A DNA stretch of 8,607 nucleotides from a bacterium (GTDB lineage Bacteria > T1Sed10-126), in contig PWOD01000041.1 of NCBI GenBank assembly GCA_003557545.1, positions 1 through 8,607 on the forward strand, in the 5' to 3' direction. Below the pieces are notes generated by a model, which was not told the origin of the DNA, ran no database searches, and saw only the letters and a list, made by a program, of their open reading frames with translations. Below are positions 484 to 3,653 of the stretch, in pieces; position 1 is the stretch's first letter; every line of letters begins with the position of its first letter. Position numbers and translations under genes: made by a program.

Positions 484-1542
484 ATGTTCAAATTGAACTT
501 TGAAAGAATGCAGCAGATAGAAACAATAGTGGAGAAGATGCTGGCTGTTGAAACAGTTGATCCGGCTCCCTGGCAGAATCCGGAGATGATCGAGGATATT
601 TCTTTATTTCCGACTGTTAATAATTCTGAAGCCCTTGAGTTTTTATTTTTTGTTGGTGCCTTAAACTTTTCATACTGGATTAAACAGGAGGGCAGAGTTG
701 AAACCTGGGGAGTTCTGACTCCATCAGGCCAGCGGGTGAAAGATATTTTTGCTTTAACCTTTTGTGTGTCCTATGCAGTTGAGACGGGAGAGCTGGAGCT
801 GACAGCCTCTTCATATGAAAAATTTGACCGGAAGTCAGCTGAAAAAATGTTTGCTCCGGTGGAAAAAAGCTGCACAATACCGATGTTGGAGAGTCGGATT
901 AAAAAAATTAATGAACTGGGAGAGGGTTTGAAAAGATTTGGTGAAGATCATGGAACAACTCCAAGTTTTCGGGCTTTTTGCCGGGAACAGGAATCCCTGG
1001 AACAGTTCTTGGAAGGTTTGTCCGACTATTTCCCTTATTCTTTTGGTGATCCATTTCAAAAACTATCCCAGCTACTGTTTAAAATTATAGTTGATCGGTG
1101 TCCAGAAAATATGCCGGAGTCGCAGCTGTTTCCGGAAGAGGATGGCTGGAGCCGGTCTGTCAACTTCGGGGGGATAGAAAAACTAACTGCACAACCTGAT
1201 TATATGCTCCCTCTGTTTTCTCTCAAAACAGGTTTGTGGGATATGGAACCGACTGTCAAAAAATATTTTTCTGATCAGATAGAATTACCGATGGATCATC
1301 CGGTTGAAGTTGAAATACGCAGGCTGACGGTGGAAACTGTGGCGATTCTTGCCGATAGAGTTCCTGGAAACAGTGGGCTGAATGCCGGTAAGATCGATTC
1401 GATAATGTGGCAGCGGGCGGTCAAAGGTTGTTTTCCGAGAGATTGTCAGGGATGTAAATTCATTGACTGGTGTGCGGCAAAAACAACTGAACCATGGAGG
1501 ATGAAACTGGACCATCATTTAACCCGAACGATTTATTATTAA
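484..1542 (+). CDS. Queuosine 5'-phosphate N-glycosylase/hydrolase (QNG1, DUF2419 family)
   Basis: I recognise this 352-residue protein as a member of the queuosine-salvage family DUF2419 (QNG1). The family hydrolyses queuosine-5'-phosphate to free queuine, allowing the base to be re-inserted into tRNA. Family landmarks in order: an N-terminal helix (residues 2-20), LNFSYW near 60-65 (the conserved N-F-x-F/Y-W substrate-pocket segment), LTAQPDYMLP near 234-243 with D239 in the conserved aspartate position, an EVEIR motif near 277-281 followed by a long helix, IDSIMW near 305-310, and a family-like terminus HHLTRTIYY. Length is normal. An unusual feature is C316-x4-C-x2-C-x5-C330, a cysteine set resembling the FeS loop of endonuclease III. 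The start has no strong Shine-Dalgarno. ATG at 508 is an alternative, but it would remove the first eight residues of a helix that fits the family. No other queuosine gene is nearby. The family assignment is confident from motifs; the activity is inferred. Confidence 0.85.
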   Translation: MFKLNFERMQQIETIVEKMLAVETVDPAPWQNPEMIEDISLFPTVNNSEALEFLFFVGALNFSYWIKQEGRVETWGVLTPSGQRVKDIFALTFCVSYAVETGELELTASSYEKFDRKSAEKMFAPVEKSCTIPMLESRIKKINELGEGLKRFGEDHGTTPSFRAFCREQESLEQFLEGLSDYFPYSFGDPFQKLSQLLFKIIVDRCPENMPESQLFPEEDGWSRSVNFGGIEKLTAQPDYMLPLFSLKTGLWDMEPTVKKYFSDQIELPMDHPVEVEIRRLTVETVAILADRVPGNSGLNAGKIDSIMWQRAVKGCFPRDCQGCKFIDWCAAKTTEPWRMKLDHHLTRTIYY

Positions 1543-2828: not shown

Positions 2829-2903
2829 CGGGGCGTGGCTCAGCTTGGCAAGAGCGCTGCGTTCGGGACGCAGAGGTCGCCGGTTCAAATCCGGCCGCCC
2901 CGA
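2829..2903 (+). tRNA. tRNA-Pro (anticodon CGG)
   Basis: A full cloverleaf can be drawn. The acceptor CGGGGCG (2829-2835) pairs with CGCCCCG (2896-2902), with discriminator A at 2903. The D stem is GCTC/GAGC with GG in its loop. The anticodon stem is CTGCG/CGCAG with loop TTCGGGA, giving anticodon CGG (2864-2866), which reads CCG. The T arm is GCCGG-TTCAAAT-CCGGC. C1-G72 and A73 are the usual proline identity elements. CCA is not encoded. It is the first gene of a two-tRNA unit, with 61 nt to tRNA-Gly. Confidence 0.95.
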
Positions 2904-2918
2904 CTGGAAGAGGTTAGT

Positions 2919-3060
2919 GGGAACAGCAGTTTATTTCGAATGACCCCGGATGTTATATGGATCCGCGGGGGTAGTTCAATGGTAGAACTCCAGCCTTCCA
3001 AGCTGGTCATGCGGGTTCGATTCCCGTCCCCCGCTTTTTGTTATGATACAGGCTGTTCCC
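2919..3060. repeat. 9-bp perfect inverted repeat flanking tRNA-Gly
   Basis: GGGAACAGC (2919-2927) lies before tRNA-Gly and its exact complement GCTGTTCCC (3052-3060) lies after it. With one G-U pair the pairing extends to 11 bp (2917-2927 with 3052-3062). In a precursor transcript the two arms would form a stalk enclosing the tRNA. Confidence 0.6.
2965..3035 (+). tRNA. tRNA-Gly (anticodon TCC)
   Basis: The acceptor GCGGGGG (2965-2971) pairs with CCCCCGC (3028-3034), with discriminator T at 3035 as expected for bacterial glycine tRNA. The D arm is GTTC/GAAC. The anticodon stem is CCAGC/GCTGG with loop CTTCCAA, giving anticodon TCC, which reads GGA. The T arm is GCGGG-TTCGATT-CCCGT, with one G-T pair. 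CCA is not encoded; five T residues begin at the discriminator (3035-3039). Its 5' leader can pair with the acceptor strand (see findings). Confidence 0.95.
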
Positions 3061-3185: not shown

Positions 3186-3222
3186 TTTATAGAGAATCTT
3201 GTATAACTGGTAATTATGCCGT

Positions 3223-3228
3223 GGGAGG
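3223..3228 (+). promoter_or_regulatory. Ribosome binding site selecting a GTG start
   Basis: GGGAGG (3223-3228) lies 8 nt before GTG at 3237. The upstream in-frame ATG at 3216 has no purine-rich site before it, and the GGGAGG would fall inside its coding sequence. GTG is therefore preferred. Confidence 0.7.
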
Positions 3229-3236
3229 CAGTTAAA

Positions 3237-3653
3237 GTGGCCGATGAGTTTGACAGAATTTCGCCTGAAGAACAGCAAAGACGTGATCGCCGTCGTAATA
3301 TTATGGAGAAAAACTACGAGCTTCTGGAAGAGCTTGAACAGCGTAATATTAAGCTGAGTTCTAACCGTTATGATCATGAAGATCGTGAATATTACGTTCA
3401 GAAGGTTGAAAAAACATACCTTGATGGGGCTACCGGTTATATACCTTCTGTGAAGCTTGTGAATGAAACGGTTCGCCCCTCTCTCCAGCCTGTTTTAAAA
3501 CTTCCCCGAAACCTGATTCCGGTTGATAAAAAGGGTGGCAGTAAGACCCTTAACCTGATCTATTCATCAGAACCCTCCGTTGAACAGTCTTTCCACTATA
3601 TGAATCGTTATGAACGACCTGACCTGGAGATATATATTACTTACGAGGAATGA
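3237..3653 (+). CDS. Uncharacterised 138-residue charged cytoplasmic protein
   Basis: I do not recognise a family for this product. It has no signal peptide and no membrane segment, so it should be cytoplasmic. From the GTG start, residues 8-42 are highly charged and predicted helical (SPEEQQRRDRRR, then EKNYELLEELEQRN), with heptad-like leucines suggesting a short coiled coil. Residues 48-138 are richer in beta-forming residues, with many Tyr and Val (YYVQKVEKTYL, GYIPSVKLVNETV, LNLIYSS, LEIYITYEE). Codon use resembles the neighbours and the frame is clean, so it is likely a real, expressed gene. If ATG at 3216 were used the protein would be 145 residues. It lies alone between the tRNA pair and the phosphorylase gene, with a candidate terminator just after its stop. 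That position gives little hint of its role. It may be restricted to this lineage. Confidence 0.7.
   Translation: MADEFDRISPEEQQRRDRRRNIMEKNYELLEELEQRNIKLSSNRYDHEDREYYVQKVEKTYLDGATGYIPSVKLVNETVRPSLQPVLKLPRNLIPVDKKGGSKTLNLIYSSEPSVEQSFHYMNRYERPDLEIYITYEE

Follow-up and report, generated by a model that had tools for sequence, protein, structure and literature searches.

A divergent branch of the Qng1 glycosidase family with a conserved endonuclease III-like four-cysteine loop

Qng1 enzymes release queuine, a micronutrient, from nucleotides. The likeness of the Qng1 fold to that of DNA glycosylases is already known, and the role of the iron-sulfur (FeS) cluster in the HhH glycosylase superfamily is unexplained. 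A Qng1-like gene in the window, by which we mean the whole stretch of 8,607 nucleotides analyzed (contig PWOD01000041.1), raises the question of whether the four cysteines near the C-terminus of its product form an FeS loop of the endonuclease III (Nth) type, and on what substrate such a protein would act.

The four-cysteine loop and its occurrence in the Qng1 family

The gene (positions 484..1542, forward strand) encodes a 352-aa protein, which was assigned to the Q_salvage/Qng1 family (PF10343) as a divergent HhH-fold N-glycosidase on the basis of its Pfam match (77 bits at a curated cut-off of 25), an ortholog in a sister genus and the same gene neighborhood there. No named NCBIfam model matched any of the glycosidase proteins analyzed, and PF00730 gave no match to the window protein to E 0.001 and none to its relatives to E 10 (HMMER filters on). 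Cysteines occupy residues 94, 130, 166, 206, 316, 321, 324 and 330, of which the last four form the motif C316-x4-C321-x2-C324-x5-C330 (1429..1473, forward strand), predicted from alignments and profile matches to be a [4Fe-4S] loop. Their codons, all TGT, start at 1429, 1444, 1453 and 1471, and C330 lies 22 residues ahead of the C-terminus, so that spacing and position are exactly those given by an earlier, sequence-only reading of this DNA. The pattern C-x4..8-C-x2-C-x5-C arose by chance in 40 of 200,000 shuffles of the window protein; conservation is the stronger argument for the motif.

We compared 20 divergent homologs with 8 canonical Qng1 proteins (28 sequences) and distinguished four groups: the window protein with its sister genus (W), two distant four-Cys groups (A and B), and canonical Qng1 (C). 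The four loop columns hold Cys in every sequence of the alignment of the 20 divergent homologs and in none of the 8 canonical proteins, where three of the four columns are gaps. The four cysteines therefore co-vary as a subgroup, the point on which the sequence-only reading had made its proposal depend, and their absence from all canonical members agrees with its statement that the cluster is not known as a hallmark of the characterized eukaryotic enzymes. For most four-Cys homologs, the sequence through which they were ascertained did not include the loop: only N-terminal patterns were used in the genome scan ([VS][KLM]HQ[FY]GFW and [LF]KGSD[FY][IV]W), the homolog in genome G029 was first found via residues 39-249, and those in G162 and G214 via N-terminal PF10343 matches. 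The genome-contig profile scan was seeded with the group-A alignment, and later group-B members were found by a profile that took in the loop.

In the searched set, the phylum of the window comprises two genomes, G000 (the source of the window) and G001, whose ortholog is 51% identical over the full length; both proteins keep the four cysteines. Group A occurs in MAGs labelled Lindowbacteria, Hydrogenedentota, Kiritimatiellae, Myxococcales and Acidimicrobiia, and group B in G162 and its phylum and in G214. The suggestion of a distinct subtype in an anaerobe's Qng1 thus holds for the subtype, as the Cys block marks one part of the family, but it is not confined to a single anaerobe and extends over several phyla. 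Searches of viral contigs and plasmids revealed no relative of the window protein or of group A.

The spacing C2-x2-C3-x5-C4 of groups W and A is identical to that of Nth and MutY. In group B, a long insertion with two further Cys separates C2 from C3; G390 and G387 have lost both insertion cysteines and kept the core four. The C1-C2 interval is x4 in the window protein, x7 in group A, x6 or x7 in group B, and x6 in Nth. A very distant relative in G426 (L112, 713-1963) has the arrangement C-x6-C, long insertion, C-x5-C. Separately, two AGOG-like proteins (L034, 1045-1941; L038, 973-1881) carry a C-terminal four-Cys stretch of their own and possibly represent a further FeS-like HhH family.

Relation of the loop to the iron-sulfur loop of endonuclease III

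In the unrooted tree of the 28 sequences, the canonical Qng1 proteins fall on one side of a single branch (support 99/95), and a second split separates groups W and C from groups A and B (100/98), so that the Cys-bearing group W is placed beside the canonical group. Both splits persist after removal of the loop columns (97/95 and 100/98, respectively). Because the canonical group forms a single bipartition with or without the loop, the distribution of the cysteines requires only one change. Since the outgroup, Nth, has the cysteines, we infer that their presence is the ancestral state and that canonical Qng1 has lost them.

A profile of five four-Cys sequences matched Qng1 in the PDB with an E-value of 6e-19, followed by Nth (0.019-0.023) and MutY (about 0.1); the latter two were matched at the FeS loop, with E-values that are weak one by one. 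The same profile also draws Nth-like proteins from genomes. When the 20-sequence alignment was compared with 20 Nth sequences by hhalign, the match reached 94% (E 8.5e-8), and a single path paired RKINMLL with RKTANIVL and VDYH with VDTH (the catalytic Lys and Asp) as well as the four cysteines with the four FeS-ligand cysteines. Canonical Qng1 matched Nth at 60%, the control profiles for TGT (tRNA-guanine transglycosylase), QueA and PfkB at 0.1-0.6%, and 60 column shuffles at no more than 7.8%. Masking the four cysteines reduces the match to Nth to 19% (score 32, with the highest-scoring shuffle at 28). The Lys and Asp segments stay in register when the loop is left out, at a low score. Because of the drop on masking, the sequence case for a common loop hinges largely on the cysteines themselves. 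A 93% hhalign match between the four-Cys alignment and PfkB proved to be an artefact of kinase slices that extended into the fused glycosidase.

Predicted structures were obtained for both a group-A protein and the window protein, and their folds lend support that is independent of the sequence signal. For the group-A AF2 model (pLDDT 90.7; loop blocks 87-92), Qng1 is the top match with Z about 27; AGOG (14.9) and Nth (14.2) follow, and the alignments span almost the entire chain. The aligned range of this model with 2abk stops at residue 302, paired with 208; provided that no gap lies between, C297 would face C203, a cluster ligand. The AF2 model of the window protein, for which only that protein and ten group-A sequences served as input, has a pLDDT of 67, with loop residues 317-320 below 50; it also ranks Qng1 first (Foldseek E about 1.2e-8; VIA Z 19.5 over 284 residues), followed by Nth (Z 9.2). 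Iron-sulfur DNA glycosylases rank directly behind Qng1 in both the sequence and the fold searches of the PDB. The resemblance of DUF2419 proteins to DNA glycosidases, from which the sequence-only reading had started, is therefore seen along the whole predicted chain, which matches Nth, MutY and AGOG after Qng1. Its proposal of an evolutionary link to FeS HhH glycosylases gains from this fold match and from the register of the Cys, Lys and Asp residues with endonuclease III, and is weakened by the differing C1-C2 spacing.

Independent gain of a C-terminal Cys cluster in this branch, rather than descent from the Nth loop, would account for the weak profile similarity to Nth after Cys masking, and the unrooted tree allows one gain. 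However, the fold is shared, the loop occupies the same place behind the final core helix, and its hydrophobic-G-R-x-x-C context in groups A and B is that of Nth; Lys, Asp and Cys fall on one hhalign path, and the K/D register outlasts the loop. We thus consider convergence improbable. A different ligand is a separate matter: four cysteines suit a structural Zn ion equally well, whether the loop derives from an FeS loop or arose independently, and the variable C1-C2 spacing (x4, x6, x7) and the two additional cysteines of the group-B insertion would be compatible with it. We regard Zn as unlikely, though by no means negligible, since the C2-C4 spacing in groups W and A is that of Nth and MutY, the hhalign register is with FeS ligands, and the best non-Qng1 sequence matches in the PDB are FeS enzymes and include no Zn proteins.

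The Nth-like loop is a real, conserved feature of a divergent Qng1 branch, and it is probably an iron-sulfur loop. With good though not full confidence, we interpret the window protein as a nucleotide/nucleoside N-glycosidase with the Qng1 (DUF2419) fold and its loop as a homolog of the FeS loop of endonuclease III, in which a [4Fe-4S] cluster most likely plays a structural part. In the literature searched we found no link of the Qng1 family to iron-sulfur loops, which is not proof of novelty.

Active site, queuosine pathway and kinase partners

The catalytic residues of Qng1 are conserved in the window protein. K193 (codon 1060..1062, forward strand) corresponds to the catalytic K199 of solved Qng1 (mutant 7u5a) and to the HhH-glycosylase Lys in alignments of the four-Cys profile to solved Qng1 (HMMER) and of the Nth profile; D239 (1198..1200, forward strand) corresponds to the catalytic D231 (mutant 7ulc) and to the HhH-glycosylase Asp in the Nth profile alignment. 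Among the PDB titles are K199C and D231N mutants of Qng1, as well as complexes in which queuosine-5'-monophosphate is bound. D305-x3-W309 (1396..1410, forward strand) aligns, among the 28 sequences, with D298 and W302, named as active-site residues of S. thermophilus Qng1 (PMC11592518). The equivalents of K193, D239 and D305 are invariant in 28/28 sequences, and the W309 column is Trp in groups W, C and B and Phe in group A. The C-terminal tail R348-T349-x-x-Y352 (1525..1539, forward strand) is common to canonical Qng1, with Y352 invariant and T349 nearly so.

The features by which Nth binds DNA differ. The GhGxKTA DNA-binding hairpin is present in all 20 Nth sequences and in none of the 28 four-Cys and canonical Qng1 proteins, and the C1-C2 loop has a mean net charge of +1.7 in Nth, -1.8 in group A and 0 in group W. 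Because the loop is kept without these features, a structural role is favored. The HhH-glycosylase fold, the Lys/Asp pair, the FeS loop and a genome without TGT, QueA or an over-cut-off QueC match (see below) could also point to a repair-type glycosylase with DNA or RNA as its substrate; this is very unlikely given the missing hairpin, the non-basic loop, the dominance of Qng1 among the fold matches, and the presence in both G000 and G001 of an Nth-like protein of their own. For the last of these reasons, we also rejected the idea that the window protein replaces a missing Nth.

TGT gave no matches in G000 and G001, and all 14 control genomes were positive. QueA was not found in either genome by the genome search, the QueC search yielded nothing in G000 and a single below-cut-off match in G001, and the yajC loci of both genomes lack queA-tgt. 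Elsewhere, TGT is present in 11/11 genomes with canonical Qng1, adjoining the Qng1 gene in several of them, and in 7/9 genomes with four-Cys proteins, the exceptions being G000 and G001. Because these two MAG-like assemblies are incomplete (91.9% and 93%), the joint absence of TGT and QueA is likely real rather than proven. An ordinary queuine-salvage Qng1 that feeds tRNA queuosine formation would fit the PF10343 membership, the full active site, the Qng1 fold, the occurrence of TGT in all genomes with canonical Qng1 and in all seven other genomes with four-Cys proteins, and G214, where the group-B gene lies just downstream of a TGT fragment (a second TGT) at a contig start. However, without TGT, QueA or an over-cut-off QueC match, salvage of queuine into tRNA is unlikely in G000 and G001; we give this role only a small chance, and the window protein probably does not serve tRNA queuosine in its own cell. 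The label of queuosine glycosidase hence stands as to family, fold and catalytic residues, and is uncertain as to queuosine salvage.

Groups A and B are associated with PfkB kinases, either by fusion or within operons. In Myxococcales and Acidimicrobiia MAGs, the group-A protein is fused to a PfkB kinase domain, as confirmed by Pfam in L048, L050 and L054; L053 (which ends at a contig end), G434 and G435 have the same arrangement by sequence, and the kinase part of G434 matches ribokinase-type models. A kinase-sized ORF lies directly upstream of the group-B gene in G162, G393, G386, G390 and G387; three of these ORFs (G162, G386 and G390) gave matches to ribokinase/nucleoside-kinase models, all below a curated cut-off. 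Counting fusions and immediately preceding genes together, PfkB kinases accompany four-Cys Qng1-like proteins in L048, L050, L054, L110, L111 and L074 (4167-5060). We propose PfkB and the four-Cys protein as a candidate kinase-glycosidase module for nucleoside salvage. The arrangement suggests that in groups A and B the kinase first phosphorylates the nucleoside and the 5'-nucleotide is then cleaved to the base, a two-step route that would fit the preference of Qng1 for the 5'-monophosphate.

The gene order common to the window and G001 is an acetyltransferase-like ORF, the Qng1-like gene, a conserved short ORF, pyrimidine-nucleoside phosphorylase, miaB, a TPR/SPOR ORF and mutS. Between the Qng1-like gene and two tRNA genes, tRNA-Pro(CGG) and tRNA-Gly(TCC) (2829-3035), the window has a secreted, beta-barrel-like ORF (1665-2492) with no Pfam or NCBIfam match and not at the same place in G001. 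A 145-aa ORF without a family match (3216-3653) is apparently conserved in G001 (L072, 8772-9275).

For the preferred reading of the window protein as an FeS-loop nucleotide glycosidase, K193 and D239, together with D305 and W309, would bind a 7-deazaguanine-type nucleotide, and its N-glycosidic bond would be hydrolyzed; the cluster may pin the C-terminal segment, which by analogy with canonical Qng1 would adjoin the substrate pocket. The family probably arose from an FeS DNA glycosylase, in which the hairpin for DNA binding and the basic loop would have disappeared first; the canonical eukaryotic and bacterial Qng1 branch would later have lost the cluster, in a single event.

Comparison with known systems

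The four-Cys branch is a probable missing link between the Qng1 family and DNA-repair glycosylases: by keeping the Nth-type Cys loop, it would provide a link at the sequence level and a direction, from an FeS DNA-repair glycosylase to a clusterless metabolite glycosidase. It also allows the role of the cluster to be tested in a setting without DNA, in which DNA sensing is not an option, and the genomes that lack TGT prompt the question whether the substrate is a different one. We tentatively suggest, with somewhat less than even confidence, that the four-Cys proteins form a new FeS branch, PfkB-partnered in groups A and B, which survives as the intermediate stage between FeS DNA glycosylases and Qng1 without a cluster, and that in the TGT-less lineage it handles another nucleotide, or queuosine nucleotides for a non-tRNA use.

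Among known systems, Qng1/DUF2419 (PF10343; 7u91, 7ulc, 7u5a, 7ugk) is the closest, sharing with the window protein the fold, the equivalents of K199, D231, D298 and W302, and the C-terminal T..Y tail; canonical members differ in lacking the four-Cys loop, in an identity of about 20%, and in that the window genome is without TGT. Endonuclease III and MutY (HhH-GPD, PF00730, [4Fe-4S]) have in common with it the fold, the catalytic Lys and Asp, and the C-x2-C-x5-C loop end at the same position, whereas the window protein has no GhG hairpin, no basic loop, a shorter C1-C2 interval, no PF00730 match, and a Qng1-like N-terminal part. The AGOG 8-oxoguanine DNA glycosylase (PF09171) is the second-ranked fold for the group-A model and gives weak PF09171 scores in group B, but its substrate is DNA and the group-B sequence match is below the Pfam cut-off. 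Finally, clusterless MutY, as the passage of PMC11078426 citing Trasvina-Arenas 2016 presents it, is a precedent for loss of [4Fe-4S] within an HhH glycosylase family, with the difference that there the cluster was lost inside a DNA-repair enzyme.
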